This document shows positions 2,681 through 17,630 of a DNA stretch of 64,000 bases, one piece after another (position 1 is the first letter of the stretch; each line of letters starts with the position of its first letter). The translations under genes were made by a program, and so were the position numbers. Origin of the DNA: Opitutia bacterium Tous-C4FEB. Lineage in GTDB: Bacteria > Verrucomicrobiota > Verrucomicrobiia > Opitutales > Opitutaceae. Location: NCBI GenBank assembly GCA_002304445.1, contig NEVA01000012.1, positions 1-64,000 on the forward strand, in the 5' to 3' direction. The notes under the pieces were generated by a model. It worked only from the letters and a program-made list of their open reading frames with translations. It made no database searches and was not told where the DNA came from.

Positions 2681-3882
2681 GTGTGAGCGAAGGCCAGAGC
2701 GGGGAGACGGAGGCGCGAGAGCGGCAGGAAGTGTTGCGGCGACGGTTGGTCGCGCTCGGATTCGACGAGGTGCGGTTCGCGGCGTTGGCGGAGCTGGGCG
2801 GAGACCGGTTGAAGGCATGGTTTGAGGCGGGACACCATGCGGACATGCAGTGGATGGAACGGACGGCGGAGAAACGGTTGAAGCCGGAGCTGGTTTTGGC
2901 CGAGGCGCGCTCGGTGATTATGTTGGGTGTCAGCTATGCGGATGCCGCTCGAGCGGTGAAAGGTGAAGGGCAAGAGGCAGGTGAGGCTGCACCACAGCGG
3001 GCGACGTGGGCGCGGTATGCGTTGCACGAGGATTATCACGACACGATGAAAGTGGGCCTGATCGAGGCCGGGAAAGTGATCGGGGAGATGTATGGCGCGA
3101 CGCGGGAAGACCTGCGGGCGTATGTCGATACCGGCCCGGTGCTCGAACGGGGGTGGGCGGCGAAGGCGGGACTCGGGTTCATCGGGAAGAACGCGATGTT
3201 GATCTCGCGGCGGCACGGGAACTGGTTGTTTTTGGCGACGATTTTGACCCGGCAGGAATTTTTTCCCGACGCGCCGGTACGGAAACAGGCGAGTGATTTC
3301 GCGGATGTGGGACTGCTCTGCGGAAAGTGCACACGGTGTTTGGACGCGTGCCCGACGGAGGCGTTTGCGGCTCCGGGGGTGGTGGATGCGCGGCGGTGCG
3401 TTTCGTATCAGACGATCGAGAACAAAGGGATTATTCCGCGGGAGCTGCGGGCGGGAATCGGGAACCGGATCTATGGATGCGACGTGTGCTTGGAGGTGTG
3501 TCCCTGGAACCGGTTCGCGGTGGCGGGGCGGGAGGTATTGCTGGTGGCGAGGCGGGAATTGGCGGGACTGAGCGTGCGGGAGATTTTGGCGCTGACGCCA
3601 GCGCGGTTTGCGGAAGTTTTTCGCAAAACCCCGATCAAGCGGGTGAAGCTCGCGGGGCTGTTGCGGAATGCGTGTATCGTCGCGGGGAATTCGGGCGACG
3701 TGAGCCTCTTGAAACCGTTGGTGAGGCTCGCGCGGCATGAGTCGGCCTTGGTGCGGGCGCACGCGGTGTGGGCGGTGCGGATGCTAGGCGGCGAGTCTCG
3801 GGCGAGTGCGCTGCTGAAGCCGGCGCGCGCGGCGGAAACGGATGCGACGGTGGTCGCGGAATACGGCGACGCTAGGCCTTAA
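2677..3882 (+). CDS. queG: epoxyqueuosine reductase
   Basis: QueG uses cobalamin and two 4Fe-4S clusters to reduce epoxyqueuosine to queuosine in tRNA, the last step of the pathway. The 401-aa product has the N-terminal corrin-binding domain with DTGPVLERGWAAKAG, which includes the family's catalytic Asp, and GFIGKN. The ferredoxin-like cysteines follow: CGKCTRCLDACP near residue 214 and CDVCLEVCPWN near 270. A HEAT-like tail (RHESALVRAHAVWAVRML) closes the protein. I chose GTG 2677 because it overlaps the aroK stop as GTGA; GTG 2683 is an alternative. The reading frame stays open far upstream, but that part is aroK's shadow. The 3' end overlaps the convergent thioesterase by 11 bp. QueF of the same pathway is at 34.6 kb; no queC, queD or queE is in the window. 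Confidence 0.95.
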   Translation: MSVSEGQSGETEARERQEVLRRRLVALGFDEVRFAALAELGGDRLKAWFEAGHHADMQWMERTAEKRLKPELVLAEARSVIMLGVSYADAARAVKGEGQEAGEAAPQRATWARYALHEDYHDTMKVGLIEAGKVIGEMYGATREDLRAYVDTGPVLERGWAAKAGLGFIGKNAMLISRRHGNWLFLATILTRQEFFPDAPVRKQASDFADVGLLCGKCTRCLDACPTEAFAAPGVVDARRCVSYQTIENKGIIPRELRAGIGNRIYGCDVCLEVCPWNRFAVAGREVLLVARRELAGLSVREILALTPARFAEVFRKTPIKRVKLAGLLRNACIVAGNSGDVSLLKPLVRLARHESALVRAHAVWAVRMLGGESRASALLKPARAAETDATVVAEYGDARP

Positions 3883-4276
3883 ACGCAGCGGTCATCACGG
3901 CGACGATGTTGGCGGGCGGGCGCACGGGCCGGCCCTGAAGATCGATGAACGCATGGGCGGATTGACCGGTGGCGAGGAGTTCTTCACCCCGGAAAACTTC
4001 GTAATCCAAATGAATCCGAAGAAGTGGTTTCTCGCGCAAATAGGTGATGATGGTGAGAACGTCGTCGTAAAGGGCGGGGCGGGAATATTTGGCGGAAATT
4101 TCGAGCACGGGCAGGCGGTAGCCCTCGGCCTCGAGCTGACGATAGGGAAGGCCGAGTTCTTTAAGCAGAGTGGTGCGGCCGATCTCAAACCACGGGAGAT
4201 AATTCGCGTGGTAGACAATGCCCATCATGTCGGTCTCGGCGTAGCGAACGGTGACTTGGGAGCGGGAGACAATCAT
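3872..4276 (-). CDS. YbgC/FadM-type acyl-CoA thioesterase (4HBT hotdog fold)
   Basis: The 134-aa product is a single hotdog domain. It has the YbgC-type active-site segment YAETDMMGIVYHANY, whose Asp is the catalytic residue, followed by WFEIGRTTLLKELGLPY. These enzymes hydrolyse acyl-CoA or acyl-ACP thioesters. The ATG at 4276 overlaps the stop of the upstream glycosyltransferase (ATGA), so I reject the longer in-frame extension to 4384, which lies inside that gene. Coupling to a glycosyltransferase and proximity to the ACP-dehydratase and ketosynthase genes suggest a role in releasing or editing acyl chains of a dedicated lipid; this is inference from position. Confidence 0.88.
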   Translation of the reverse strand: MIVSRSQVTVRYAETDMMGIVYHANYLPWFEIGRTTLLKELGLPYRQLEAEGYRLPVLEISAKYSRPALYDDVLTIITYLREKPLLRIHLDYEVFRGEELLATGQSAHAFIDLQGRPVRPPANIVAVMTAAFKA

Positions 4277-5463
4277 GGGCGTTCGGCGGGAAAAGAGGCG
4301 GTTGATTCGGCCGGATCGTCGACGGCGGGGTTGGCGCCGAAAAGGGCCTCGGCAGACTCGATCCAACAATTGCGCCCGGCCCATTTGCGACCGGCGGTGC
4401 CGAGACGTTGGCGCAGGGCCGGATCGTGGATCAGTTTCTCAAAGGCGGCGGCAAGTTGCGCGGGGCGATGGGGCGGCACGAGCAGACCGGTCACCCCATC
4501 TTGCACCGCTTCGGCCACCCCGCCGACGTTGTGCGCGACCACGGGCAACCCGTGAGCGGCCGCCTCGAGATAGACGAGGCCAAAGCCCTCGATGCTGCGG
4601 GCGTGATTGATGCTCGTCATCGCAAAGATATCGGCGCGATCGTAAAGGGTGGTGAGTTCGTCGTCGGGGATGTTTCCAAGAAAACGAACGGTGAGATCGG
4701 GGGTGGCGGTAGCGGCTTGGCGAATCACCTGCTCGTAGCGGCCTTTGCTCTGGCCGCCCACGATCCAGTATTCGAGGCGAGCCCGGTCGGAAGCGGGGAG
4801 CAGTTGCAAGGCTTGGAGCGTGAGCAGTTGGCCCTTGCGGGGATGGATGCGGCCGACCGTGAGCACGACGATTTTGGCGCGGGGGGCGTCGGACTTGAGG
4901 GGAACGACGGCAAAATCCGAGCGAAGGGCGCCGGGCGTCAGCACGATCTTGTTGGCGGCTTCTGGAAAATGGGTGAGGAGAAGCTCCTGCGTATAGTTGG
5001 TCAGAGTGCTCACGCGCGTGGCATGTCGGATTAACCGACCCGCGAGGGCGCGACGGATGGGGCTGCTGGCGAATTTCAAGATTTCGGAACCATGGAAGGT
5101 GAGCACCAATTGCTTTGGGCGGAAGGCCCGGAAGAATTGAAGCAGCATCATGGTCAACATCGGGCCCGGCTCGGGGAGGTAGACGGTGGCGTAACGCAAC
5201 CGCCGCCGTGCGCGGATGAATTCCCGGGCGAGTTGAACCTGGCACCACAGATCGTGCGTGCCCTTGAGAGGCAGACGCCGCAGCCGGAACGGCCAGACTT
5301 TCTCTTGATCGGGCTCGGCGGATTGAGCCCAAACCTCGGTTTCGTAACCTAAACTCGCCGAGGCCCGGGCAATCTCTTCGGTGAACGTCGCGATACCGCC
5401 ACGCACGGGGTAAAATTCATGGGTAATCAGAAAAACGGAGGGAACGGAGGCAGGAACGCTCAT
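4273..5463 (-). CDS. GT4-family glycosyltransferase
   Basis: This protein of about 396 aa has the two-Rossmann GT-B layout. The N-terminal acceptor domain has FYPVRGGIATFTEEIA near the start and LTFHGSEIL near residue 120. The C-terminal nucleotide-sugar domain has VGRIHPRKGQ near 210 and the GT4 signature SIEGFGLVYLEAAAHGLPVV with the conserved EGFGL...E pair. Sugar donor and acceptor cannot be told from sequence. ATG 5463 (MSVPASVPSVF) is preferred; a TTG five codons upstream would also be in frame. It is coupled to the downstream thioesterase by ATGA overlap and is divergent from the ACP-dehydratase gene over about 195 bp. Confidence 0.9.
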   Translation of the reverse strand: MSVPASVPSVFLITHEFYPVRGGIATFTEEIARASASLGYETEVWAQSAEPDQEKVWPFRLRRLPLKGTHDLWCQVQLAREFIRARRRLRYATVYLPEPGPMLTMMLLQFFRAFRPKQLVLTFHGSEILKFASSPIRRALAGRLIRHATRVSTLTNYTQELLLTHFPEAANKIVLTPGALRSDFAVVPLKSDAPRAKIVVLTVGRIHPRKGQLLTLQALQLLPASDRARLEYWIVGGQSKGRYEQVIRQAATATPDLTVRFLGNIPDDELTTLYDRADIFAMTSINHARSIEGFGLVYLEAAAHGLPVVAHNVGGVAEAVQDGVTGLLVPPHRPAQLAAAFEKLIHDPALRQRLGTAGRKWAGRNCWIESAEALFGANPAVDDPAESTASFPAERP

Positions 5464-5658
5464 GCGCAGAAATTGCAAAAGGACGGCCCGAAGTCATCCG
5501 GGCAGTCCAACCTATTGGGCGTTGGCCTTGCGCTGGCAAGTGCGCCGATGAACCCAGACGAAAAGTCCGATAGGGCCGTGATTTGGCGGAAATCACCGGC
5601 GGACTGAATTAGAAATTGGAGTTTACTTTCGAGCCTCCGAATCTAGAACCAAGGAACA

Positions 5659-6636
5659 ATGCCAGACGCAGTTCAACCGATTCCCGGGAGTAGTAAGCCA
5701 TTTGTGGCGCCATCGAAGCCCTTCGCTCCCGAAGACGAATCGGCTCTACGTGAGGCACTTAAACGTTGTTCACCGTCTGCCTTTGAATCTGCGGTGCAGT
5801 TCCGAAAGACGGGAAACCCCGAGCATGTTCCGGCCGTTGTGATCGGAATCGTCGAACGCTTTGTTGAGCCTGATCTGAGGATTAAGTTAAAAGATGCGGA
5901 TGATGACCTCCGGCTGATTGAAGACCTGGGGATTGATTCCCTCACGATGATGGAAATCGTGATTTTGGTCGAAGACGTCCTTCAGCTTTCGATCAATAAT
6001 GATGAACTGAGGAATCTGCGCACGGTGGGTGACGTGAAGACCTTCATTGATTGCAAAATTCGGGGATTGGCTTTGCCGAAACCGACTAAGTTTATCCCAA
6101 TCGAGCAAATTGCTGCGGTGATGCCGATCCAGCCCCCGTTCCTGTTCCTGAATGAGGCGTCGGTAAGTTCCAGCGGGGCAAACGGTAAATATAAAATAAC
6201 CGGCCAGGAGTTCTTCCTCCAAGGGCATTTTAAGAATAACCCCGTGATGCCGGCGTCGATCATGCTTGAGGCCTTGGGTCAGTTGGCGGTGCTCTATCTT
6301 TTGGAAGGCGCGGCACCGGAACCCGGCAAGGTGATCAGCTCGTCCCTGATTTACTTCACCGGTTGTGAGGGCGTGAGGGCGCATCGGGTTTGCCGGCCTG
6401 GTGATATTCTCACGCTTTCGATCAAGCCGAAGCGGATGAAAATGCCTTTGGCGACGTTTGAAGGTGCGATTCGGGTAGGTCAGGAAAAAGCGGCAATCGC
6501 TGAAGAAATCACGCTCACCTTTGGTTATGCCGAGGCGGTAATGCCGCCCCCGGTTGCGGAGATAAATGGCCACACGACGCCCAAATCGGACGCGGTCGCG
6601 GCGACCTCGCCGCTGCGGGTGGCAGTTAACGCCTGA
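5659..6636 (+). CDS. acyl carrier protein / FabZ-type 3-hydroxyacyl-ACP dehydratase fusion
   Basis: This 325-aa fusion has three parts. Residues ~1-45 are a linker rich in Pro and Ser. Residues ~50-130 are an acyl carrier protein with the phosphopantetheine site LIEDLGIDSLTMME (Ser near 95). Residues ~150-300 are a hotdog dehydratase with the FabA/FabZ catalytic His and Glu in QGHFKNNPVMP and LEALGQLAVLYLL. Both catalytic groups and the attachment serine are retained. The C-terminal 30 residues look unstructured. A good ribosome site (AAGGA) precedes the ATG. The gene is visibly poorer in GC (close to half over long stretches) than its neighbours, a possible sign of transfer. It is followed by a terminator and a ketosynthase gene, and probably acts with the latter in a dedicated acyl-chain pathway. 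ACP-dehydratase fusions are uncommon. Confidence 0.88.
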   Translation: MPDAVQPIPGSSKPFVAPSKPFAPEDESALREALKRCSPSAFESAVQFRKTGNPEHVPAVVIGIVERFVEPDLRIKLKDADDDLRLIEDLGIDSLTMMEIVILVEDVLQLSINNDELRNLRTVGDVKTFIDCKIRGLALPKPTKFIPIEQIAAVMPIQPPFLFLNEASVSSSGANGKYKITGQEFFLQGHFKNNPVMPASIMLEALGQLAVLYLLEGAAPEPGKVISSSLIYFTGCEGVRAHRVCRPGDILTLSIKPKRMKMPLATFEGAIRVGQEKAAIAEEITLTFGYAEAVMPPPVAEINGHTTPKSDAVAATSPLRVAVNA

Positions 6637-6657
6637 TTTGGACCGTTTGGTTTATGG

Positions 6658-6684
6658 AATGGCGGCTTTAGAGCCGCCATTTTT
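6658..6684 (+). terminator. rho-independent terminator after the ACP-dehydratase gene
   Basis: A perfect 7-bp stem GGCGGCT/AGCCGCC with the loop TTAG (6668-6671) is extended by AAT/ATT pairs and followed by a T run ending at 6684. It lies 22 bases beyond the stop codon, so the downstream ketosynthase gene probably has its own promoter in 6685-6869. Confidence 0.85.
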
Positions 6685-6869
6685 GTGGGTATTCCAGCGG
6701 GTCTTCCGGAGTGAGCAACGATGGTCCGACGAACCCTCGGAAACCAGCCATCTCTCGCGTTGACCGCAGTCGAATTCCCCCAAAAATTCTCGCCAGTCTC
6801 TAACGTCCGCGCAAACGCCAACCCGTTTTGCCGGTCTCTGCGCTCATCGCAACCTACCTCGCACCACGC

Positions 6870-8132
6870 ATGCCCAGAGTATTCATTACCGGTCTCGGCT
6901 TTATCACCAGTATTGGTAATGACGCTGCTACAGTTACAAAGAGCCTGCGCGAGTTACATCATGGATTTGAGCTTTATGCTCCGTTTCAGAACCCTGAGAT
7001 TCCGGTCAAAGTAGCGGCTCCGGTTAAGGGTTTTTTCACTGATTCGGTCGACGTCGAGGATTGGACTTTTCCGGCGGGCATCGTGATCAAGCGCGAGGTG
7101 TTGCGCGGAATGTCGCCGCATGTGGTTTACGCGTGGTGCGCGATGCAGCAGGCGATCGCCGATGCGAAACTTGGTGATGCGGAGGTTTCCAATGAAGCGA
7201 CGGGTCTTTACGCGGCTTCAGGGGGATCGCCATTTTTGATGGGACACATGTTGGAGCGGATGCACAAGCAGGGGGTGATGCGGTGTTCGCCTCTCGGGAT
7301 TGTGGCTTCGATCTCCGGGGCGGTGCAGTTCAACCTCGTGGCCCATTTCAAAATCAAGGGATCATCCTGTGGATTCGCGTCGGCGTGTGCCTCTTCCTCT
7401 CATGCTCTCGGTTTTGCCTATGACGACTTGGTGACCGGTCGGCAAAAGCGGATGTTTGTCGTGGGCGCGGAGGACGGGAATATGGATGCGATCTTACCGT
7501 TTGCTGGAATGCGGGCCTTGTCTTTGTCGACTGATCCTTCGAGTGCCTCTCGGCCTTTCGACACGGGACGTGATGGATTTGTGGGTACCGGTGGCGGCGT
7601 CGTGCTGGTGCTCGAGACGGAGGAAGAAGTCATCCGTCGTGGGGTCACACCTTATTGCGAGGTCGCAGGGTGGGCCCAAGCTTCCGACGGGCATAATGTC
7701 GCAATTTCACATCCGGAGGGCTTGGGGTTGCGCGCGGCGATGGCTAATGCGTTGCGGGTGACGGGCACTGCGCCTGAGGACGTGGACTATGTGAACGCTC
7801 ACGCGACCTCCACGCCGATCGGTGACGCGTCGGAGGCGAAGGCGCTGCGGGCAGTGTTCAATCCGTCCGGGATGCGTCCGGCGATCAGCAGCACCAAGGC
7901 TTTGACGGGGCATGGGCTCTCGCTGGCCGGAGCGATGGAGAGCGGCTTTTGCGCCTTGGCCGTGCGGGACGGATTTATGCCGGGTTCGGCTCACATCACC
8001 CAGCTCGACCCGGAGTGTGCGGATTTGAACATCATCCGATCAACCTTGGCGGCCCAGCCCAAGGTAGCCCTCAACAACGTCAGTGGCTTCGGCGGCGCCA
8101 ACGTCAGCATTGTTTTCAAACAAGCTCGTTGA
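6870..8132 (+). CDS. beta-ketoacyl-ACP synthase (FabF/FabB-like)
   Basis: A 420-aa thiolase-fold condensing enzyme. The nucleophilic Cys is in SACASSSHALGF near residue 180. The two histidines are in NAHATSTPIGD near 310 and in TKALTGHGLSLAG near 345. The C-terminal GFGGANVS motif is present. It would condense malonyl-ACP with an acyl primer. ATG 6870 (MPRVFITGLGF) matches the family N-terminus; an in-frame ATG-like start at 6828 would add 14 residues with no family support. Upstream is the ACP-dehydratase fusion. Downstream, 101 bp away, is an MGDG-synthase-like transferase. No ketoreductase or malonyl transferase is nearby, so housekeeping FabG and FabD would have to serve. Confidence 0.9.
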   Translation: MPRVFITGLGFITSIGNDAATVTKSLRELHHGFELYAPFQNPEIPVKVAAPVKGFFTDSVDVEDWTFPAGIVIKREVLRGMSPHVVYAWCAMQQAIADAKLGDAEVSNEATGLYAASGGSPFLMGHMLERMHKQGVMRCSPLGIVASISGAVQFNLVAHFKIKGSSCGFASACASSSHALGFAYDDLVTGRQKRMFVVGAEDGNMDAILPFAGMRALSLSTDPSSASRPFDTGRDGFVGTGGGVVLVLETEEEVIRRGVTPYCEVAGWAQASDGHNVAISHPEGLGLRAAMANALRVTGTAPEDVDYVNAHATSTPIGDASEAKALRAVFNPSGMRPAISSTKALTGHGLSLAGAMESGFCALAVRDGFMPGSAHITQLDPECADLNIIRSTLAAQPKVALNNVSGFGGANVSIVFKQAR

Positions 8133-8233
8133 ACGCCCGTGCTCCAGTGCTGATTCGATGCCGGGGCAGCCGGCAATTCGGACGAATTGACCCGGCGGTG
8201 CGGGTTTGTTCGGCTGGCAACTCATCCTGATCC

Positions 8234-9466
8234 ATGTCGAAGGTTCGCATTCTCATCCTCACCTCGTCGACCGGCGGCGGTCACGATGCACGGGCGGAGG
8301 CTTTCGCCGAATGGTGTTTTCAGCTTTACCGGCACCAGGTCGATGTGCGGATCGAGCAGATGCTTGAGAAATCCTCCGTGCTGAACCGCGCGGGAGTCGG
8401 GTTCTACAACAAGATCCAAAAAGTGGCTCCGTGGCTGCACAGCGGATTTTACGCGTTCGTGGAACTCTTGAGTTACATCAACCGCCGAGATGTGACCTTT
8501 GGCCGCAGTTACTTTCTTGAGGTTCTGCGCGATTACCAACCCCACCTGATTTTCAGTGTCCATGATTGTCTAAATCGGGGGTACTTTCAGTTGGCCCGGG
8601 CTACCCTCGGGGCGGATCGCGTGCGCTGCGTGACTTATTGCGGGGAGTTTTCCGGCGGTTGGGGCTATTCGCGAAATTGGATCGAGCCCTCGGTGGATCT
8701 TTATTTTTCCCGTACGCCGACCGCGCGAGATTTTGCCGTGAAATCCGGGATCGCACCGGAGAAATCGCGGGTGCGGGGCAATCTGATGTTGCCGCGTTCG
8801 GTGCTCGAGACGATCACGCCGGAGGAACGCGGCGCCTTGCGCGTGAAACGTTTTGGCCTGCGGCCCGATCTCTTCACGGTCTTTCTCGCGACGGGTGGAA
8901 ATGGAGCGAACCAGCATCTTCAGCTTTTGCCGGCGTTGGTGAAGCACGCCGACCGGGTGCAGGCCATCGTGATCTGCGGAAAGAACAAGGAGTCCTACAA
9001 CGAGTTGGTCCACTGGCGCGCCAACCATCCGGAATTTAACTGCTACCTCGAAGGTTATTCGGAAGTGGTCCATCTGCTCATGCAGGCCAGCGATGTGATC
9101 GTGACGCGTGGCGGCACCACGACGTGCGCCAAAGCGCTTCATTTCCGGTGCCCGATTATCTTCAACGCTTTCCAAGGGATCATGCCGCAGGAGCAACTGA
9201 CCTGGAAATTTTTCCGCAACGGTGCCGCCTCGGAGAAGATCGAGAGCGCCGGTGATTTCGCCCGCATCATCGACACCTGGATCGGCGACCCGGCGGCTTA
9301 TGCGAAGGTGAAGGAAAATTTCGTGCAGCTGCGCTACGATGAAGACCCGACGCTTCTGATCGAGGAGATCGTGGAGCTGGCCAATAGCGTGGCCCGGACA
9401 AAATTGAAACGCCGGGTGTTCCCGCCGGTTAACGGCAACGGCCTTGCGATACAAGCGGCCGAGTGA
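8234..9466 (+). CDS. MGDG synthase / MurG-like (GT28) glycosyltransferase
   Basis: A 410-aa GT-B enzyme. The N-terminal domain opens with ILILTSSTGGGHDARAEAF, the glycine-rich lipid-acceptor loop of the MGDG-synthase/processive diacylglycerol glucosyltransferase family. The C-terminal donor domain has FLATGGNGANQH near residue 220 and VIVTRGGTTTCAKAL near 290. Members glycosylate diacylglycerol or a related lipid at the cytoplasmic face of the membrane. Its position between a ketosynthase and two GT4 enzymes supports synthesis of a glycolipid; the exact acceptor is not known. ATG 8234 directly precedes the conserved strand, so the start is secure. Confidence 0.85.
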   Translation: MSKVRILILTSSTGGGHDARAEAFAEWCFQLYRHQVDVRIEQMLEKSSVLNRAGVGFYNKIQKVAPWLHSGFYAFVELLSYINRRDVTFGRSYFLEVLRDYQPHLIFSVHDCLNRGYFQLARATLGADRVRCVTYCGEFSGGWGYSRNWIEPSVDLYFSRTPTARDFAVKSGIAPEKSRVRGNLMLPRSVLETITPEERGALRVKRFGLRPDLFTVFLATGGNGANQHLQLLPALVKHADRVQAIVICGKNKESYNELVHWRANHPEFNCYLEGYSEVVHLLMQASDVIVTRGGTTTCAKALHFRCPIIFNAFQGIMPQEQLTWKFFRNGAASEKIESAGDFARIIDTWIGDPAAYAKVKENFVQLRYDEDPTLLIEEIVELANSVARTKLKRRVFPPVNGNGLAIQAAE

Positions 9467-9531
9467 TCGGGGCGTGCGCGCGCGCAATGCGCTTGGCCGG
9501 CGGGCGCCGGGGGCTCTAGCGTTTCGCCATC

Positions 9532-10752
9532 TTGCCCGCACCCAAACCCGTAATCGCCTATCTGTTCACGACCTTTCCCAAGCGCACGGAAACCTTTTTG
9601 CAGCGAGAGATCATCGCGATGCGCGCGCAGGGCGTGCAGGTGCGGCTCTACTCTTTGTGGGGCGGGCTGGATTCGTTTCGCGGTCTGCCCGTGGCCCGTT
9701 TCAACAAGTGGCGTTTGCTGACTCTTTTTTGGATGATTCCCTATGAAGGCTGGCGACGTCCCGAGGTGTTACGACAGGTGGTGCATGGTCTTTTCACGCG
9801 ACGTCCACCGTCGTGGATTAATTTTTGGGAGAACATGCTGGGCGCCGGATTTGCCTGCCTCTTCGCCGGTGATTTTCGGCGGAATCCACCCGCGCTGGTG
9901 CACGCGGCGTGGGGTGGGGCGCCGGCGACGGCGGCATGGCTGCTTTGGCGACTTGACGGGCACCGTTTCAGCGCCGCCGCGCATGCGTATGATCTTTTTG
10001 AGCACGGAGGCGACTGGTGGCTGCGCGACAAACTGGAGCATGCCGCGTTTGTCCACACCTCGACGGAAATGGGCCGGACCGCGTTGATCAAGTTGGGTAT
10101 CCCGGCGGAGAGAGTGGTTCGCATCCGAAGAGGTTTGGATCAGATGCCGACCGTGAAACGATTGCGCGCCTCGAGGGAGCCGCTGCATTTGATCTGTGTG
10201 GCGCGGCTGGTGGAAAAGAAAGGGCTGGATCACCAATTGCGGATTTACGCCGCACTCCGGGCCGCAGGCATGCCGTTTCACGCGCGGATCGTGGGCGATG
10301 GACCGCTCCGGCCGGCGCTGGAAAAATTGGCCGGCGGTTTGGGGATCGCGGCCGAGGTGACGTTCTGCGGGCACTTGGCCCAGCATCACGTGTGGGAGCA
10401 ATTCGAGTGGGCCGATGTGTTGCTGCATACGGGCGTGATCGCGGCCAGCGGAGACCGGGACGGCTTGCCGAATGTGATTCCTGAGGCGATGTCGTGCGGA
10501 GTGGTGGTCGTGACCTCGCCGACTGCCGGGACGACTGAAGCAATCACCGACGGGGTCAGTGGTTTTGTCGTGCCGGTGGAAGCGACTGCGCAATGGGTGG
10601 CGGTCCTGCTCCGGCTATCAAACGACGACGCGGTCGCCGAGCAGGTGCGGAATCAGGCGCGACGTTGGGTGGAGGAAAATTTTGACGCGCATTGCAATGC
10701 GGCGCGTTTGCTCGAGGCCTTCGAGAAAGTGGTGGCGGAGAAATCGGCATGA
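9532..10752 (+). CDS. GT4-family glycosyltransferase
   Basis: 406 aa, beginning with a TTG codon. An in-frame stop at 9517 and the conserved first strand VIAYLFTTFPKRTETFLQRE leave no other start. The Rossmann domains are typical of colanic-acid WcaL-like GT4 enzymes, with VARLVEKKGLDHQLR near residue 220, GDGPLRPALE near 255 and the donor-site stretch DGLPNVIPEAMSCGVVVV near 310. The last bases overlap the ATG of the next glycosyltransferase (ATGA), so the two are coupled. Sugar specificity is unknown. Confidence 0.9.
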   Translation: MPAPKPVIAYLFTTFPKRTETFLQREIIAMRAQGVQVRLYSLWGGLDSFRGLPVARFNKWRLLTLFWMIPYEGWRRPEVLRQVVHGLFTRRPPSWINFWENMLGAGFACLFAGDFRRNPPALVHAAWGGAPATAAWLLWRLDGHRFSAAAHAYDLFEHGGDWWLRDKLEHAAFVHTSTEMGRTALIKLGIPAERVVRIRRGLDQMPTVKRLRASREPLHLICVARLVEKKGLDHQLRIYAALRAAGMPFHARIVGDGPLRPALEKLAGGLGIAAEVTFCGHLAQHHVWEQFEWADVLLHTGVIAASGDRDGLPNVIPEAMSCGVVVVTSPTAGTTEAITDGVSGFVVPVEATAQWVAVLLRLSNDDAVAEQVRNQARRWVEENFDAHCNAARLLEAFEKVVAEKSA

Positions 10753-11783
10753 TTTTTTTCGATGTCACGAAATCGGGCGGAGCCGGACATCGCTCCGGCT
10801 TGTTACGCGTGAGCGCGCGGTTGGCGGACGAGTTGGGCGATTCGGTGCGCGAGGTGAGTTGGACGAATTGGGATCGGAGCATGTCGGCCGGAGACTGGTT
10901 CTTTACCGCCGAGCTTTTTTCAGAGGAAGAGAGGCCCGGGTTCTCGGCGTTTTTGGCCGCCCGGTCCGGTCGTGCCGCTGCGGTGTTCCATGACGCCATC
11001 CCGCTCAAGTGGCCGCAGATCACTTGGCCGCAGAGTGTGGCGCGGCATCCGAGTTACATGAAAATGCTCGCGCAGTTCGATCGCGTGTGGGCCGTGTCGG
11101 CCGCGAGTTGCGCCGAGCTTGCGGGGTTTTGGCGGTGGCAAGGACTTGAACAGGTGCCGCCGTTGGATGTGCTCGCGCTCGGTGCGGACGCCGATCGTGC
11201 GCCGCGGGTAACCGGGCGGGTAGAGGCGGTACGGTCGAAGTCATTGATCTCGGTGGGAATTTTGGAGCCGAGAAAAAATCAGGCACTTCTGCTGGATGTG
11301 GCGGAGACGCTTTGGCGCGAAGGTTTGGATTTCGAATTGAATCTCGTCGGTCGGGTGAATCCTCATTTCGGTCGGCCGCTGGAGAAACGAGTGAAGGCGA
11401 TGGCCAAAAAATTTCCGGGCCTGCGCCACCACGCGGCGGCGAGTGATGCCGTGGTGGCGGGATTGTACGCCGACGCCCGGGCGAGTGTTTTTCCGACGAT
11501 CGCGGAGGGCTGCGGACTTCCCTTGTTGGAGTCGCTTTGGCAAGGTGTGCCGTGCGTCTGCAGCGATTTGCCGGTGTTGCTTGAGAACGCGAAAGGCGGC
11601 GGTTGTTGGCCGGTCACGACCAATGATCGGGCGGCGTGGACCGAGGTGCTGCGCCGCGTGCTGACCGACGACGAACTCGCGGTCCGAGTGCGAAACGAGG
11701 CGAGGAGCCGAAAGCTAACGACTTGGGCGGCCGCCGCAGAGAAGCTTCGGGCCGCTCTGCCCGAAGGGCTCAGAGCTTCTTGA
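10749..11783 (+). CDS. GT4-family glycosyltransferase
   Basis: A 344-aa protein starting MIFFDVTKSGGAGHRSGL. This N-terminal motif (strand, then S/T-x-x-x-G-x-x-R-S/T-G) is shared with the glycosyltransferase at 13269-14498 (LDLSHTSHTRARTGIQRV), so the two are relatives. The donor domain shows SVGILEPRKNQALLL and FPTIAEGCGLPLLESLWQG. ATG 10749 overlaps the preceding stop. The gene runs 14 bp into the convergent PLP-enzyme gene. Acceptor and donor cannot be inferred. Confidence 0.88.
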   Translation: MIFFDVTKSGGAGHRSGLLRVSARLADELGDSVREVSWTNWDRSMSAGDWFFTAELFSEEERPGFSAFLAARSGRAAAVFHDAIPLKWPQITWPQSVARHPSYMKMLAQFDRVWAVSAASCAELAGFWRWQGLEQVPPLDVLALGADADRAPRVTGRVEAVRSKSLISVGILEPRKNQALLLDVAETLWREGLDFELNLVGRVNPHFGRPLEKRVKAMAKKFPGLRHHAAASDAVVAGLYADARASVFPTIAEGCGLPLLESLWQGVPCVCSDLPVLLENAKGGGCWPVTTNDRAAWTEVLRRVLTDDELAVRVRNEARSRKLTTWAAAAEKLRAALPEGLRAS

Positions 11784-12969
11784 CCGCGTAGGCCATCGCG
11801 TCGGCGATCTTATCGAGCTGTTCGTCGGTGTGCATCGCGGAAATTGCGGTGCGGATGAGGTCCTTGCCGATGGGCACCGCCGGCGCGATGGACATGACGG
11901 TGAAGACGCCTTTCTCGAGCAGGGCTTTCCAGAAAGGGTAAACTCGTTCCTTCGAACCGAGCACAATCGGAGTTGCGGGGGTTTCGCTGCCCCAGGTGTC
12001 GAGGCCGAGGTTTTTGAGAATGGCCCGATATTTTTTTGTATTCGCCCAGAGGCGGTCGTGATGTTCCCGCTCCTGCTGCATGATTTCCAGCGAGGCTTGG
12101 GCGCACGCGGCGGCGGCGGGGCTGATGGCCGCACTGAACACGGTCTGTTTGCCGCTGGTGCGTAGAAACTCGATGGCATCCCGCGACGCAGCGATGAAGC
12201 CTCCGGTGCTGGCGAGCGACTTCGACAGGCTGCCGCAGATAACGTCGACTTTGTCGTTGAGGCCGAAGTGATCGACGGTGCCTCGCCCGTGCCGGCCGAG
12301 CACGCCGAAGCCGTGGGCATCGTCGAGGACGGTGAAGCAGTTATGTTCTTCGGCGATTTCTGTGAGTTCGGGCAGACGGGCGATGTGGCCCTCCATCGAG
12401 TAAACCCCCTCGATCACGAGGATCTTTGGCGCATCGCTCGAGGCCGCGGCGGCCGCGACTTCGCGGAAATCGTCGGGGCTGTTGTGCGAGAAACGTTCCA
12501 CAGTGGCCCGGGAGAGTTGGATGCCTTCCCAAAGGCACGAGTGGATGTTTTTGTCGGCGAAAATGATGTCCCCTTTTTGGGCGAAACCGGCAACGCTGGA
12601 GATGCAGGAAAGGTAGCCGGCCGAATGCACGTGGCAGGCTTCGCGGCCGAGGAAGTCGGCGAGTTTTTCTTCGAGTTCGATGTGGAAAGCGCGTGAACCG
12701 TTGGAGATGCGAGCTCCGGTGGTGGAGGTGCCCCATTTGAGCAGGGCGGCCCGGCCGGCTTCGATGACTTTGGGGTGAAACGATAGCCCGAGATAATCAT
12801 TGCTCGAAAGCATGATCATATCCCGGCCGTCGAGGCGCACGTTGGTCCCGTGTTGGGACTCCATGGCGTGGTAGTAGGGGTCGTACTTTAGCCGCATCTT
12901 TGTCGCGTAATCGTCGCGAAAGCGGTTTTGAACGGCCTTTTTGTTTTTGCTGAAGAATGATAGCGCCAT
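11770..12969 (-). CDS. alpha-oxoamine synthase family PLP enzyme (serine palmitoyltransferase / KBL / BioF type)
   Basis: A 399-aa fold-type I PLP enzyme that condenses an amino acid with an acyl thioester with loss of CO2. Markers are MLSSNDYLGLSFHPKV near residue 55, GTSTTGARISNGSRAFH near 85, VLDDAHGFGVLGRHGRG near 205, and the Schiff-base lysine in GSLSKSLASTGGF near 240. The N-terminal stretch YDPYYHAMESQHGTNV is more like bacterial serine palmitoyltransferases than BioF, and no biotin gene is nearby. An acyl-ACP from the adjacent ACP-dehydratase/ketosynthase genes would be a reasonable co-substrate. Sphingoid-base synthesis is therefore the leading hypothesis; glycine C-acetyltransferase or another oxoamine product remains possible. 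ATG 12969 is chosen; the open frame above it overlaps degenerate sequence. Confidence 0.85.
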   Translation of the reverse strand: MALSFFSKNKKAVQNRFRDDYATKMRLKYDPYYHAMESQHGTNVRLDGRDMIMLSSNDYLGLSFHPKVIEAGRAALLKWGTSTTGARISNGSRAFHIELEEKLADFLGREACHVHSAGYLSCISSVAGFAQKGDIIFADKNIHSCLWEGIQLSRATVERFSHNSPDDFREVAAAAASSDAPKILVIEGVYSMEGHIARLPELTEIAEEHNCFTVLDDAHGFGVLGRHGRGTVDHFGLNDKVDVICGSLSKSLASTGGFIAASRDAIEFLRTSGKQTVFSAAISPAAAACAQASLEIMQQEREHHDRLWANTKKYRAILKNLGLDTWGSETPATPIVLGSKERVYPFWKALLEKGVFTVMSIAPAVPIGKDLIRTAISAMHTDEQLDKIADAMAYAVKKL

Positions 12970-13268: not shown

Positions 13269-14498
13269 TTAGACGCGGCGATCGAGGGTCGTGAGCCAAG
13301 TGGCGAGATCGCGGGCGTAGTCGGACCACGTGTGGAAACGGCGGGCGCGGGCGGCGTCGGTGAGGGCGGCGAGAGCGGATGGGGTCGAAAGCAGCCGGGA
13401 AATTGCGTGGGCGATAGAAGGGGCGTCGACGCGGTCGAGGGCGATGCAGCCGCCGTCGCGGGTGGCTTCACCGAGCGCGCCGTGCGCGGAGCAGATGCAG
13501 GGTTTGCGGTAAGCGAGGCTTTCCAAAACAGGCAGGCCGAAGCCCTCGATGAGTGATGGGTAAACGGTGAATGCGCAGGCGGTGTACGCGGCGGCCAGTG
13601 CGGCCTCGGTGACGGGGCCGGAGTGGCGGAGTGGGCGACCGGAGGTTTGCAGGGCGTGGACCCGGGCGAGGGCGGCGCGACCGGTCTGCGGGTGCGCCAA
13701 GCCGACGAGATGGAGTTCGAAATTTGCACCGGCCGACCAGAGCGACTCACAGGCGTCGAGAAGGGCCACGTGGTTTTTGCGGCCTTCGAGCGAGCCGACG
13801 GAAAGGACGGTGGGGATTTCGGATTTTTGGTTTTGGATTTTCGATTTCTCCGAAGCCAGCCCGAGGGGTTTGTCATCCATTAGATGACAAACGGGGTCGA
13901 TGCCGAGGGGGATGACGGTAACGGCGGGGCGGGATGATGAGGGGATGCCGAGCCAGTCCCAGTAGGAGAGGAGCGTTGCGCGGGAGTCTTCGGAATTGGC
14001 GGCGATGCCGTCGAAGGCGAGGAGTTCGCGGAGATAGGAGGGAAACCGGGCGACGGTTTTGGCGGGAGTGAGTTCGGGGAATTTGAGGGCAATGGCGTCG
14101 TGGAAAACCGCGACGCGCGGGCCGCTCGTCGCGGCGAAGAGCGCGGGGAGCGCGGCGGCGACGGCGGGGGTGAAGAGTTCGGGGACGAGGAGACCGGAAG
14201 GGCCGAGAGCCGAGAGCTGGGCGTTGGGAGATTGGTGGCCGAGGAGGCGGCGGGTGTGGCCACGGAGTTGGGCGGTCACGGGCCAGCTGGCGCCGCGTTT
14301 TTGGCTGAACGAATCGGTGGATAGATTCTTGAGTTCCCAAGGATCGAGGGGGCGCCACGTGCGTTCGTGCGGATCGAAGGTGACGGGCGCAGCGGCGGGA
14401 CCGAGTTCGCGCCAGAGGGAGCGGGCCACGCGTTGGATGCCGGTGCGGGCGCGAGTGTGGCTCGTGTGCGAGAGATCGAGCAGAATGGTGGCGGGCAT
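13269..14498 (-). CDS. GT4-family glycosyltransferase with an in-frame repeat insertion
   Basis: 409 aa, starting MPATILLDLSHTSHTRARTG. The acceptor domain includes VAVFHDAIALKFPELTP near residue 130. The donor domain has LSVGSLEGRKNHVALLDA near 235 and FTVYPSLIEGFGLPVLESL near 315. Between the conserved IPLGIDP and PTVLSVG segments there are about 28 extra residues (CHLMDDKP..., KSKIQNQKSEI) encoded by 13808-13895. That DNA is a perfect palindrome (13868-13892) plus a low-complexity A-rich tract (13813-13847). The same palindrome recurs outside genes at 40167. The insertion keeps the frame and sits in an interdomain linker, so activity may survive. It is a relative of the gene at 10749-11783. 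Confidence 0.88.
   Translation of the reverse strand: MPATILLDLSHTSHTRARTGIQRVARSLWRELGPAAAPVTFDPHERTWRPLDPWELKNLSTDSFSQKRGASWPVTAQLRGHTRRLLGHQSPNAQLSALGPSGLLVPELFTPAVAAALPALFAATSGPRVAVFHDAIALKFPELTPAKTVARFPSYLRELLAFDGIAANSEDSRATLLSYWDWLGIPSSSRPAVTVIPLGIDPVCHLMDDKPLGLASEKSKIQNQKSEIPTVLSVGSLEGRKNHVALLDACESLWSAGANFELHLVGLAHPQTGRAALARVHALQTSGRPLRHSGPVTEAALAAAYTACAFTVYPSLIEGFGLPVLESLAYRKPCICSAHGALGEATRDGGCIALDRVDAPSIAHAISRLLSTPSALAALTDAARARRFHTWSDYARDLATWLTTLDRRV
13868..13892. repeat. 25-bp perfect palindrome, copy 1 (inside a glycosyltransferase gene)
   Basis: GTTTGTCATC (13868-13877) and GATGACAAAC (13883-13892) are exact inverted repeats around the loop CATTA. The identical arms recur at 40167-40191 with loop CACTA. 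Two copies with the same arms and a near-identical loop, 26 kb apart in unrelated contexts, indicate a dispersed element rather than chance. Confidence 0.9.
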
Positions 14499-14507
14499 CG
14501 TAAGCGG

Positions 14508-16067
14508 CTACGGAGTGAGGACGCTCAGGCGGAGATCATAAAGCGCAAAGGCGAGGGCCCGGGCGTCGGGGTGGGGGCTTTCAGACGTTGGCGGGGTTTC
14601 GGAGTAAAATTCGAGGTTGGTGCGGCCGGGTGCGAGGCGAAGGGAGATGGAGTGCGGCGCGGTCTTTTCGCCGACGGGGCCGCGCCAGAGTTCGCGGTCG
14701 CCTTGACGGACAATGACGGTGCGCGGGGCCAGGGTGCGAAGGGCGAAGTCGAGGCGGACGTTGGCAGGGGCGTTGGCCCAGGTGTCGATCACCAGTTGGG
14801 AACGGCCGGAACTCCAGGACCATAAGTGTTTCGAAGTGCGCTCGGCGCCGAACCAGCCGTCGCCGATATGGACGACGGTGGCGACCCCGCCGCTGCGACC
14901 GGCGGAGAGTTCGCGGGTGTTGACGGGAAAATCGCGAAGGACGAGGAAACCGGCGGCGATGCCGAGGTTGCCCAAAATGAGCCACGCGAGCGCGGCGCGG
15001 GTGCGGTGGGCGAGGACGTTGAAGGCAAGGATGAGCGGGAGCAGCACGCGGGTGAACGCCCCGGGGTAGCCCTCCCAGACGGCGGTGCCCAGGGTGAGCA
15101 TGAGCGCGGCGTAGGCGGCGCCGACGCGCCACCAAGATTCGGCGAATTGTCGCCACCGCGCAGCGAAGAACGCGGCCTGCACCGCGATACCCACGACGGC
15201 GCCAAGGGTGGTCCAAGCGAGCAGCGAGTCTTCGAGGAGCGTTAGATCGGTAAGCGCGGTGGCCGTTTTCTCGATGAGGCCCGAGACGGGTAACGAGAGG
15301 TTGGCCCAGCCGGCGTCGGCGGGACCGAGATGCCGGCGGATGTAGGCGAGCCACGCCAAGAGCGGCGCGGCGACGAAGATGCCGAGGAGAACGTGGCGGA
15401 GGGAAATCCAAGGCCTCGTGACGAGACCGGCGGCACCGAGCAGGGCGGTCTCGCGGGCCAAGGCGGCGGCGGCGAGGAGGGCGGCGGCGGATTTGGGGCG
15501 GGCGCGCTCGGCGGCGAAGAGCGCGGCGGCGAGGAGCAGTGCCATCGGCAGATCGGTGAGGGCGAGGCGCACGCTGCTGAGGGCACCGCAGGAAAACAGG
15601 ACGCCGGCCCACGCCAGCCCGCCGCGGAAATCGGCGACGGCGAGGATGCGCCAGAGCAGAGCGGCGAGGGCGAGCCACGCGGCGACGTTGAGGAACGAGT
15701 AAATGTGGACAATGGCCGCCGGTTGACCGGCGGCGAGTAGCCAAGCGACGGCGGGCGGCAAAATGCGGCGCGCGCGGTAGGAGAGGTTGTCGATCGCGGG
15801 GGCGAGTTCGACGGAGCGGAGCAGCGGATCGTAGGCGATTTGCGCGTAGTAAAGACCGTCGTAGCCGCCGGTATCGCGGTGGACGTAGACGGGATGTTCG
15901 CGGAAGGCGGCGATCTTCAGATTGTCATTGGGCGCGTCGAGCTGGATGAGCGCCGTGAGGCCGTAAACGGGGTGCCAAAAGCGGGCGACAAGAACGAGAA
16001 AGAGGACGACGGCGGCGACGGCCGCGCAGCGGAGCGGCCAGCGGCGGGCGGGGCGCGGGGCGGTCAT
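14508..16067 (-). CDS. polytopic membrane protein, YDG-motif cell-surface glycopolymer family (paralogue 1)
   Basis: 519 aa from ATG 16067, which overlaps the stop of the upstream GT39-like gene (ATGA); the frame extends further upstream only as shadow. It has about 10-11 hydrophobic segments between residues ~10 and 390. A periplasm-side loop after the first has GGYDGLYYAQIAYDP, followed by NLSYRARRILPPAVAW. A later conserved block is WWRVGAAYAALMLTLG, then AVWEGYPGAFTRVLLP. The C-terminal ~120 residues are predicted beta-rich (LWSWSSGRSQLVI). The YDG...YRARRILP pattern resembles proteins annotated as AZOBR_p60025-family glycopolymer formation proteins; this is from memory. The GT-C fold and function are inferred. 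Paralogues lie at 17631 and 21276. Confidence 0.75.
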   Translation of the reverse strand: MTAPRPARRWPLRCAAVAAVVLFLVLVARFWHPVYGLTALIQLDAPNDNLKIAAFREHPVYVHRDTGGYDGLYYAQIAYDPLLRSVELAPAIDNLSYRARRILPPAVAWLLAAGQPAAIVHIYSFLNVAAWLALAALLWRILAVADFRGGLAWAGVLFSCGALSSVRLALTDLPMALLLAAALFAAERARPKSAAALLAAAALARETALLGAAGLVTRPWISLRHVLLGIFVAAPLLAWLAYIRRHLGPADAGWANLSLPVSGLIEKTATALTDLTLLEDSLLAWTTLGAVVGIAVQAAFFAARWRQFAESWWRVGAAYAALMLTLGTAVWEGYPGAFTRVLLPLILAFNVLAHRTRAALAWLILGNLGIAAGFLVLRDFPVNTRELSAGRSGGVATVVHIGDGWFGAERTSKHLWSWSSGRSQLVIDTWANAPANVRLDFALRTLAPRTVIVRQGDRELWRGPVGEKTAPHSISLRLAPGRTNLEFYSETPPTSESPHPDARALAFALYDLRLSVLTP

Positions 16068-17548
16068 GGTGCGGGGGCGACGTAGCGCCAGATGCTGCGT
16101 TTGGCGACGACGGCGACTTTTTCCCAGTGGGCGGGCACGCGTTCGTGGAGGACGTGGGCTTCCTCGGCGACGCGGATGACGAGATGCAGCGGGCGGCCGG
16201 CGCGGGCCAAGTGGGTAGCTTGGGCGGAGAATTCGGCGGCGCTCATCTGGTCCCAGCGCAGAATCGGAAAGGGCGTGTAGTAGTGGAGGGAGCCGCTGTC
16301 GGCGTTGGTCAGGATGACGGTGTTGGCGGGGAGCTCGGTGCGTGCCCACGTGCCCACGTCGGCGTAGGCTTGCTCGTAGGTTTTGGTCAGGAGGGTGTGG
16401 AACTCGCGGGTCGAGAGGATCGAAAGGGCCAGCGACCAGACACTAAACGCGGCGGCCGTCGCGAACAACCAACGGCGATGCGAGCCGATGAAATAGTTGA
16501 GCGTCGCCATCGCGGCGAGGATCAGCGCGGGGAACGCCGGGAGGATGAAGCGCAGGCACCACCACGTCTGCCCCGAAACCTCGTAGAACGCGTAGAAGAG
16601 GACGGGCACGAAAAACCAGAGTGCGACGGCGAGACGTTCGCGCAGCGGGAGGCGCGGGAGGCAAAAAAAGAGCGCGGCGAGAGCGAGGCAAAGGCCCGGC
16701 AGCAGGGTGCCCAGCCACTTGCCGAAATGGAGCACGGTCGGGTTAAAGTAGGCGGCGGAAAAGGCTTCAAAGATGGAGCCGTAGCCCATCTGCCACGCGG
16801 AGCCGAAGAGGTGGGCGTTGGTGGCGAGCAAGAGGACCGCACCAGGGAGGCTACCTATAGCCGCAGCGGCAAGGGGGCGCCACCCGGTGGCGAGGAGCAC
16901 GACGAGGGCGGGGAGCAGAAGGATGTTGGTGGGGCGAACAAGGACGGCGACGGCGAGAGCGGCGCCGGTGGCGCTGGCCCAGCCAAGTGAGGTGCGGGCG
17001 CGCAGGGCGGCGTAAACGGCGGCGAGCACCCAGGTGGTCGCGAGGACATCGCTGAGCGGTTGGATCGCGATGAAGATCGTGACCGGGGACACGCCAAAAA
17101 GCAGAGCGGCGGTGGCGGCCAGCGGCCACGCGAGGCGAAATTCCCGCGCGATGGCGTAGGTGAGAAGCATCGCGACGAGGGTGGCGCCGACGCCGACGAG
17201 GAGCGGGCCCAAGGTCCAGCCGAAGAGCACGCTGGCGAGGGCGAGGTGCGCGGGCAGGCCGAGCGGATAGGTGGGCACGAGGCGCGCGCGGGCCGGTTCG
17301 GCGATGAAGCCGAGGGGTTGGAGCTGCGTCGCGGTGCCCACCGAAAGGCCGGCGAAGTCGCGTTGGGGCGCGGTGAGTTCGCCGCGGGCGAGCAGTTGGG
17401 CGGCGTTGAGGTAGCCGGAGGAATCGGAACCGCCGGCGACGGGGGAAAAATTGAGGCCGAGGAACACCGCATAACCCAACAGCACCACGGCGGCGAACCA
17501 GGCAAACCAGCGCGGTGCGGGAGTGGTGGCGGGGTTCGGATTTGACAT
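16064..17548 (-). CDS. GT39/ArnT-like polytopic glycosyltransferase
   Basis: A 494-aa membrane protein with about 10-12 transmembrane helices. After the first helix comes the acidic loop GGSDSSGYLNAAQLLARGEL, the region that carries the catalytic acid in GT-C enzymes of the PMT/ArnT kind. The motif PTYPLGLPAHLALASVLFG follows near residue 90. A soluble tail after ~390 includes DSGSLHYYTPFPILRWDQM. Such enzymes move sugars from polyprenyl phosphate carriers to lipid or protein acceptors outside the membrane. It is coupled to the downstream YDG-family gene. A decayed paralogue is at 20240-21233. It is divergent from 17631 over 82 bp. Confidence 0.75.
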   Translation of the reverse strand: MSNPNPATTPAPRWFAWFAAVVLLGYAVFLGLNFSPVAGGSDSSGYLNAAQLLARGELTAPQRDFAGLSVGTATQLQPLGFIAEPARARLVPTYPLGLPAHLALASVLFGWTLGPLLVGVGATLVAMLLTYAIAREFRLAWPLAATAALLFGVSPVTIFIAIQPLSDVLATTWVLAAVYAALRARTSLGWASATGAALAVAVLVRPTNILLLPALVVLLATGWRPLAAAAIGSLPGAVLLLATNAHLFGSAWQMGYGSIFEAFSAAYFNPTVLHFGKWLGTLLPGLCLALAALFFCLPRLPLRERLAVALWFFVPVLFYAFYEVSGQTWWCLRFILPAFPALILAAMATLNYFIGSHRRWLFATAAAFSVWSLALSILSTREFHTLLTKTYEQAYADVGTWARTELPANTVILTNADSGSLHYYTPFPILRWDQMSAAEFSAQATHLARAGRPLHLVIRVAEEAHVLHERVPAHWEKVAVVAKRSIWRYVAPAP

Positions 17549-17630
17549 GCCGGAGAGTGGTTTTGTGATGCGACAGATTGTTTACAAACCGGACAACATT
17601 TAAGCGCGCGGCGCAGCACCCGGCGCACGT

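Follow-up and report, generated by a model that had tools for sequence, protein, structure and literature searches.

In Rhodobacteria, serine palmitoyltransferase (SPT) uses a dedicated acyl-acyl carrier protein (acyl-ACP), and the system, found for example in Caulobacter, is composed of spt, the specialised acyl carrier protein (ACP) AcpR, the acyl-ACP synthetase AasR, cerR, and cerS (PMC9386255, PMC11324152). The Bacteroidetes 3-ketosphinganine reductase BT_0972 is a classical short-chain dehydrogenase/reductase (SDR) that is not clustered with SPT (PMC9278070). The rhizobial rkp genes encode a type I polyketide synthase (PKS), RkpA, with WcbR as its counterpart in the Burkholderia wcb genes (PMC3908369), and fumonisin and AAL toxin are sphingoid analogues made by PKS-oxoamine synthase systems (PMC4936691). 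Within the Verrucomicrobiota, Spt-like proteins were reported in 22 metagenome-assembled genomes from the Black Sea, and Spt-like genes lying apart from bCerS and CerR are likewise on record (PMC11334938). We analysed a stretch of 64,000 nucleotides (the window; positions 1 to 64,000 of contig NEVA01000012.1) from Opitutia bacterium Tous-C4FEB, family Opitutaceae, in which an ACP fused to a FabZ-type dehydratase (ACP-FabZ) and a ketosynthase (KS) lie together with a glycosyltransferase (GT) resembling monogalactosyldiacylglycerol (MGDG) synthase (MGD-type GT), four GTs of family GT4 (GT4a to GT4d), and a pyridoxal-phosphate (PLP)-dependent alpha-oxoamine synthase. The source genome (G000) comprises 3.76 Mb in 39 contigs and is 96% complete, and when compared by ACP-FabZ protein, the nearest named relatives were metagenome-assembled genomes of Opitutaceae (98%, Opitutus sp. 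GAS368 isolate; 97%, Opitutia bacterium Baikal-G3). Genomes, loci, and genera are given as G, L, and g numbers where they have to be told apart.

ACP-FabZ and the SPT-clade enzyme are kept or missing together, and in several lineages of the phylum both are again accompanied by the KS, an SDR, and the GTs of this set. Among the 95 family genomes that were at least 95% complete, 90 carried both at the orthologue level, five carried neither, and none was discordant. At a completeness of at least 90% (121 genomes), the counts for both, ACP-FabZ only, PLP enzyme only, and neither were 111, 4, 1, and 5, and over all 150 family genomes they were 128, 8, 5, and 9. The five genomes without the pair (G044, G098, G135, G061, and G149) belong to genera g44, g18, and g40, in which other species keep both genes; the absence is less certain for G135 and G149, whose draft assemblies are broken into 270 and 220 contigs. 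Since Fisher values ignore relatedness, these repeated joint absences are the better argument. Across the 387 genomes of the phylum, 44 had both, five ACP-FabZ only, one the PLP enzyme only, and 337 neither, the share from outside the family being nine, five, and one. Before scoring, ACP-FabZ was matched in 138 of the 150 family genomes and in 47 of 49 genera (E ≤ 1e-15), and the PLP enzyme in 136 (E ≤ 1e-60), including a few paralogue-level matches. G088 and G106 were scored without ACP-FabZ (paralogue or weak match only), G044, G073, and G126 without the PLP enzyme (matches of just 1e-61 to 1e-62), G084 as PLP-positive from an edge fragment, and G005, G053, G118, and G136 with ACP-FabZ, its parts appearing as separate or broken matches. 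At the phylum level, 57 genomes matched ACP-FabZ at E ≤ 1e-20; eight with partial matches of 1e-20 to 1e-28 were scored absent, among them G292, which has the ACP part only, adjoining its KS, and three with separate parts (G265, G357, and G462) were scored present. The PLP profile matched 53 genomes at E ≤ 1e-100, and eight of these, at 1e-101 to 1e-118, were scored without an orthologue and may carry other SPTs.

The PLP enzyme had been described in the original prediction as SPT-like, with a placement among KBL or BioF named beforehand as the outcome that would speak against it. In two maximum-likelihood trees, the enzyme fell inside the SPT clade (support 100/99), apart from BioF, KBL, and HemA, which rules out these three identities. 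The reference rows were annotated BioF, KBL, and HemA sequences from plasmid records and three SPTs (from the PDB and from a Roseomonas plasmid with an adjacent ACP), to which the second tree added 11 further oxoamine synthases from 10 genomes. A Rubrobacter enzyme with 43% identity formed the nearest row (support 97/92, and 87/82 in the second tree); genes for a GNAT protein and an epimerase lie next to its own, resembling the spt-bcerS-cerR set. The best solved relatives were likewise SPTs, 8guh and 3a2b (304 bits; 40% identity to 3a2b), which we take to be Sphingobacterium enzymes. Residues His143, His219, and Lys250 were invariant in 15 of 15 aligned rows; of these, we take Lys250 to bind PLP and His143 to stack on the substrate. 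The second oxoamine synthase of the source genome (C10:60805-61881) fell among the KBLs, and the oxoamine synthases of the genomes with ACP-FabZ only were placed in the KBL group (G257) or the BioF group (G265, G296, and G357); in the remaining one, G462, no oxoamine synthase was found at 1e-30.

Two further arrangements involving oxoamine synthases were observed. On a Rubrobacter radiotolerans plasmid (L178:3845-7212), an SPT-clade gene, a GNAT gene, and an NAD-epimerase gene lie consecutively at some small distance from CRISPR genes; they are probably plasmid-borne ceramide genes. Two species of genus g44 (L190:7812-10063 and L191:8387-10752), one of them without the Opitutaceae-type pair, have another oxoamine synthase gene beside a GNAT gene resembling the presumed ceramide synthase. 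This oxoamine synthase is 35-36% identical to the Rubrobacter enzyme and was placed on a long branch that lies outside the SPT clade; genes resembling those for KS and SDR are found nearby.

The gene-neighbourhood comparison proposed with the original prediction showed a conserved gene set whose order recurs across many genera. In 20 ACP-FabZ loci chosen from 20 family genomes of 19 genera, the KS gene lay beside ACP-FabZ in all 20 and the divergent GT4a gene in 17; eight of these stretches also included the PLP gene. The full set of ACP-FabZ, KS, MGD-type GT, GT4b, GT4c, and PLP gene was found together in 22 of the 41 loci of at least 20 kb drawn from 80 named-contig loci fetched. Scattering of the genes in relatives had also been named as an outcome that would count against a common pathway, and here the result was divided: of the 17 family genomes assembled into 10 contigs or fewer, nine had the PLP gene within about 13 kb of ACP-FabZ and eight had it elsewhere, yet the two genes are kept or missing together. 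In deep genera with two loci, the SDR, MGD-type GT, GT4b, and GT4c genes stay with the PLP gene, either compactly (L057, L058, L059, L061, and L076) or with inserted genes (L060, L062, and L063, with the SDR gene of L060 just beyond the stretch), and ACP-FabZ stays with KS and GT4a in split genomes (L042, L049, and L050); in L067-L071 the PLP gene stands alone. Outside the family, GT4a, ACP-FabZ, KS, SDR, MGD-type GT, GT4b, and the PLP gene lie within 17 kb in L158 and L159, and the ACP half, KS, SDR, MGD-type GT, GT4b, and the PLP gene within 6 kb in L160; GT4c was not found in these three outgroup loci.

The cluster proteins look functional, and the residues that we take to be catalytic are invariant in aligned relatives. 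In the fusion, Ser94 of the ACP and His190 and Glu204 of the FabZ part were conserved in 14 of 14 aligned rows, and an AlphaFold model (mean pLDDT 75.9, pTM 0.60) showed a helical ACP part and a hot-dog FabZ-like part. The best fold match of this model was 3az9 (E 3.6e-12), and the best 50 of 1470 fold matches were all FabZ-type dehydratases. The FabZ half scored 70.0 bits and did not reach the FabZ model cut-off of 113, thus representing a divergent FabZ. Homologues of the fusion occurred in 47 plasmid records, none covering 80% of it, and the best 20 of the 47 matched the FabZ half. For the KS, Cys172, His310, and His347 were invariant in 12 of 12 aligned rows. This protein had been called FabF-like; the assignment as a ketosynthase held, with fabF as the best NCBIfam model (TIGR03150, 2.7e-92), whereas the solved structures pointed to FabB, which matched better than FabF (250.9 against 206.5 bits), and the best solved relatives were KAS I enzymes.

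Other carriers resembling the fused ACP also occur in these genomes. The source genome has a stand-alone paralogue at C35:184568-184891 (L176, open reading frame at about 9317-9898), downstream of a gene that resembles a TonB receptor by eye, and other family genomes likewise contain stand-alone copies with 50-64% identity to the fused ACP. In order-level relatives of genus g54 (L173:9682-10490), ACP and FabZ are encoded by separate adjoining genes, which suggests either that two such neighbours gave rise to the fusion or that it split again. A second ACP-KS pair, with a KS 52-58% identical to that of the window, was located at L189:8404-10004, L192:8994-10588, L193:9626-11208, and L194:9656-11240; it is carried by G044, G149, and G061, which are without the cluster and in which the ACP adjoining the KS homologue is diverged, and by G118, which has the cluster.

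KS, ACP, and FabZ together make up a partial elongation cycle. We consider it reasonably probable, from sequence comparison, that the genes belong to one lipid pathway, in which a dedicated type II fatty-acid module feeds the SPT and the GTs decorate the resulting sphingoid lipid. The KS would condense an acyl-ACP of housekeeping origin with a malonyl group carried by the dedicated ACP, and the beta-carbon would be tailored by the fused FabZ and the SDR, or by a housekeeping reductase where the SDR is missing, as in the source genome. The acyl-ACP would then pass to the SPT-type enzyme, where decarboxylative condensation with an amino acid, L-serine being the likeliest, would yield a 3-keto sphingoid base. 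A reductase would convert this base to the sphingoid alcohol; in most relatives it would be the SDR, unless that is a ketoacyl reductase. Finally, the MGD-type GT and the GT4 enzymes would attach sugars at the cytoplasmic face, and the resulting glycosylated sphingoid lipid would serve the envelope. The scheme is least certain with regard to the precise chain, to what the SDR does, to acylation of the amine, and to the sugars. The original prediction of a dedicated acyl-ACP that feeds an oxoamine synthase to give a glycosylated sphingoid lipid is thus supported at the pathway level by the trees and the co-occurrence. It had also listed release among the represented steps, with a 4HBT thioesterase next door; this is a candidate role based on conserved proximity, the gene lying beside GT4a in 14 of the 20 family loci.

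A more specific version of this pathway, which we advance tentatively on architectural grounds and regard as rather doubtful, is that the SPT takes a trans-2-enoyl-ACP, so that a trans-4-unsaturated base of the sphingosine type would arise without any desaturase. The KS, a ketoreductase, and the ACP-fused FabZ would stop at the trans-2-enoyl stage, as the cluster has no enoyl reductase, and C2=C3 of the acyl chain would become C4=C5 of the base. Such a hand-over would account for the presence of a fused dehydratase on the carrier that supplies the SPT; against it, a housekeeping enoyl reductase could act on the fused ACP. If this version were true, 4-unsaturated glycosphingolipids would be made in an oxygen-independent way, by a route fixed throughout one family of bacteria.

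Several observations weigh against the proposed pathway. The two best NCBIfam models for the PLP enzyme are bacterial SPT models, and it stays under the cut-offs of the SPT models (NF047600, 367.6 of 640 bits; NF047599, 339.1 of 500; NF047603, 268.3 of 670), so that it represents a divergent lineage and not an equivalog of those groups. Homologues of the KS (E ≤ 1e-150) are present in the pair-lacking genomes G044, G061, G149, and G304. The MGD-type GT is absent from several pair-keeping genera or represented there by a homologue of just 30-38% identity, although its lack of a match (E ≤ 1e-60) in the five genomes without the pair favours the pathway. A presumed ceramide synthase, queried with the GNAT protein of the Rubrobacter spt locus, whose identity as bCerS was taken from gene order and the GNAT domain, had no match in the source genome (E ≤ 0.001) and was found in one of 15 PLP-positive genomes and one of six others (2 of 21 in total). 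Both matches (G075 and G044) lie beside another oxoamine synthase. Additionally, the source genome has no orthologue of the SDR genome-wide, the best match being 32% identical, which also rules out its relocation elsewhere in that genome, and the gene is missing in six of seven sampled genomes of the same genus, G088 being the one that has it.

The SDR itself is found between the KS and MGD-type GT genes in most relatives, with a match in 117 of the 150 family genomes (E ≤ 1e-40), and it contains the Ser-Tyr-Lys triad. The best-fitting models are generic oxidoreductase models and the best solved relatives include FabG reductases, which also counts against the pathway, as the SDR may therefore not act on a sphingoid ketone. 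In two of three SDRs, the 3-ketosphinganine reductase model scored above the best 3-ketoacyl-ACP reductase model (107.6 against 100.9 and 154.7 against 103.7 bits), and in the third the scores were 90.6 and 91.2 bits; none reached the cut-off of 400 of the former (NF049977, KdsR). The SDR is thus at most a candidate 3-ketosphinganine reductase, the KdsR model being ahead in two of three cases and far under its cut-off. At E ≤ 1e-70 (at 1e-25, all 33 genomes show generic SDRs), an SDR orthologue was present in eight of 10 PLP-positive outgroup genomes, in one of the five with ACP-FabZ only, and in none of six family genomes without the pair. The gene adjoins KS in some lineages and lies near the PLP gene in others; its substrate could therefore be a ketoacyl-ACP or a ketosphinganine, and its changing position ties the ACP-FabZ-KS and PLP halves together.

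This last point also bears on a rather unlikely alternative in which two pathways are present: a plain SPT route supplied with acyl-CoA or acyl-ACP of the ordinary kind, and an ACP-FabZ-KS module that makes an unusual fatty acid for another lipid (a glycolipid or lipid A), both being core envelope traits that share the GTs. One of the points against a single pathway is that ACP-FabZ (fused or as halves) and the KS are retained in five outgroup genomes that have no SPT-clade enzyme, so that the module can serve something else; in L174, an MGD-type GT and GT4b stand alongside. The location of the PLP gene elsewhere in eight of the 17 near-closed family genomes is consistent with such a division. 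Zero discordance in 95 near-complete genomes, joint absences in three genera, and an SDR that links both halves argue for the single pathway instead.

We regard it as unlikely that the lipid, instead of being a bulk membrane component, primes or anchors a surface polysaccharide whose synthesis depends on the GT4 and membrane-protein genes nearby. Such a role has been proposed for the rhizobial rkp genes. In the window, the PLP gene is adjoined by GT4d, two large membrane proteins (14508-17548), and a protein resembling the surface glycopolymer protein AZOBR_p60025, and relatives of some of these genes are similarly placed in L064, L066, and L072. In the deep genera, by contrast, the module consists of just SDR, MGD-type GT, GT4b, GT4c, and PLP genes amid unrelated surroundings (L057). 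It is distinctly unlikely that the enzyme uses alanine or glycine, giving 1-deoxy bases, or cysteate, giving a sulfonolipid, in a pathway otherwise alike. The oxoamine-synthase family varies in its choice of amino acid and sequence does not decide it, and the Black Sea sphingolipids reported together with the Verrucomicrobiota Spt-like genes include 1-deoxyceramides (PMC11334938). The cysteate transferase 28eh, however, matched with 191 bits compared with 304 for the SPTs 8guh and 3a2b, and the trees group the enzyme with SPTs, though their rows exclude cysteate- and alanine-using oxoamine synthases. A chance neighbourhood is ruled out by the co-occurrence and by the gene order conserved across genera.

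Profile searches confirmed every gene that the original prediction had named, each in its place (Table 1). The membership of the 7.3-kb gene set held, with a correction as to strand: thioesterase and GT4a on the minus strand are followed by ACP-FabZ, KS, MGD-type GT, GT4b, and GT4c on the plus strand, after which the minus strand again encodes the PLP enzyme and GT4d, the PLP gene being convergent with the operon. GT4b and GT4c are coupled by their overlap as proposed, and the neighbouring thioesterase likewise overlaps, by a few bases at its start, the stop of the further GT4 gene, GT4a. The MGDG-synthase-like character of the transferase was borne out by its PF06925 domain, and its solved relatives 9wde and 4wyi are diacylglycerol-acting by their names. 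A promoter and terminator scan returned fewer elements than in shuffled sequence. The G+C content was 0.58-0.60 across 4-10 kb of the window compared with 0.63 for the whole window, despite the cluster being widespread in the family. Next to GT4d, positions 14508-19250 encode the two large membrane proteins, which had no Pfam match, and the AZOBR_p60025-like protein, with 129.3 bits below the cut-off of 150. Relatives of some of these genes adjoin the PLP gene in several genomes, as does GT4d in ten loci (L036, L041, L048, L051, L052, L061, L064, L065, L066, and L072).

Table 1. Features of the cluster and its immediate surroundings, in window coordinates.
Feature	Position	Strand	Evidence
4HBT / YbgC-FadM-type acyl thioesterase	3872..4276	-	TIGR00051 85.9 bits (cut-off 68.7); 4HBT_2 2.1e-17
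GT4a, GT4 glycosyltransferase, divergent from ACP-FabZ	4273..5478	-	Glycos_transf_1 1.1e-39
ACP (Ser94, codon 5938-5940) fused to FabZ-type dehydratase (His190, Glu204)	5659..6636	+	PP-binding 1.6e-6; FabA-like 1.1e-15
Terminator-like hairpin, 10-bp stem, 4-nt loop, T-rich 3' end, directly after ACP-FabZ	6658..6681	+	Sequence read by eye; absent from motif-scan matches
Ketosynthase (KAS I/II type), Cys172-His310-His347	6870..8132	+	TIGR03150 2.7e-92
SDR site of most relatives; here 101 bp, no room for a gene	8133..8233	+	Sequence and comparison
MGDG-synthase / processive diacylglycerol glucosyltransferase-like GT	8234..9466	+	PF06925 9.2e-7, 29.5 bits (cut-off 25); PRK13609 7.6e-24, under cut-off
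GT4b, GT4 glycosyltransferase	9532..10752	+	Glycos_transf_1 1.3e-25
GT4c, GT4 glycosyltransferase	10749..11783	+	Glycos_transf_1 3.7e-17; start overlaps GT4b stop (ATGA)
PLP-dependent alpha-oxoamine synthase, SPT clade (His143, His219, Lys250)	11770..12969	-	NF047600 SPT 367.6 bits; trees
GT4d, GT4 glycosyltransferase	13269..14498	-	Glycos_transf_1 2.2e-20

If the proposed pathway is correct, most of the family (the orthologue-level pair being present in 128 of 150 genomes) would make glycosylated sphingoid lipids through a fatty-acid module and an SPT, and the acyl supply of bacterial sphingolipids would extend from a synthetase (AcpR/AasR) to chain building on the carrier. It would also predict unsaturated or beta-tailored long-chain bases, and it would offer candidate marker genes for sphingoid-lipid producers among Verrucomicrobiota without the presumed ceramide synthase. 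No description of this cluster was found in the literature searched, which left most subscription papers and all preprints outside, and a full-text search for sphingolipids in this group yielded no paper evidently on Opitutaceae lipids.

When compared to the rhodobacterial AcpR-SPT system, the cluster is similar in that an SPT-type enzyme is accompanied by its own ACP, with largely clustered genes; the dedicated ACP co-occurs with the SPT-clade gene without a discordant case in the 95 family genomes. In contrast to that system, the ACP is fused to FabZ and accompanied by a ketosynthase, indicative of chain building, the GTs are part of the Opitutaceae cluster, the search with the presumed ceramide synthase had no match in the source genome, and the SDR of relatives is of the classical type. 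No acyl-ACP synthetase was recognised among the identified cluster genes, a genome-wide search for AasR not having been made. The Bacteroidetes route is similar with respect to a PLP enzyme whose best solved relatives are SPTs and an SDR with the Ser-Tyr-Lys triad, and it differs in that the accessible sections of PMC9278070 describe no ACP-dehydratase or KS alongside SPT and BT_0972. The SDR of relatives is not clearly nearer to the BT_0972-type reductase than to ketoacyl-ACP reductases. The rkp and wcb capsule genes include an oxoamine-synthase-like enzyme and a reductase (RkpG and RkpH) and, like the genes described here, combine a dedicated chain-building module with polysaccharide genes, whereas discrete type II proteins and an SPT-clade enzyme take the place of the type I PKS in our cluster. 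The prodigiosin enzymes PigH and PigJ are also of the PKS-oxoamine synthase type, and as in the fumonisin, AAL toxin, and prodigiosin systems, a carrier-bound chain would be released by an oxoamine synthase; unlike the Opitutaceae cluster, these analogues are secondary metabolites and not a family-wide trait with lipid glycosyltransferases. Bacterial sphingoid-lipid synthesis itself is already known, and what we rate as new is the coupling of an SPT to an ACP-dehydratase fusion, a ketosynthase, and glycosyltransferases.

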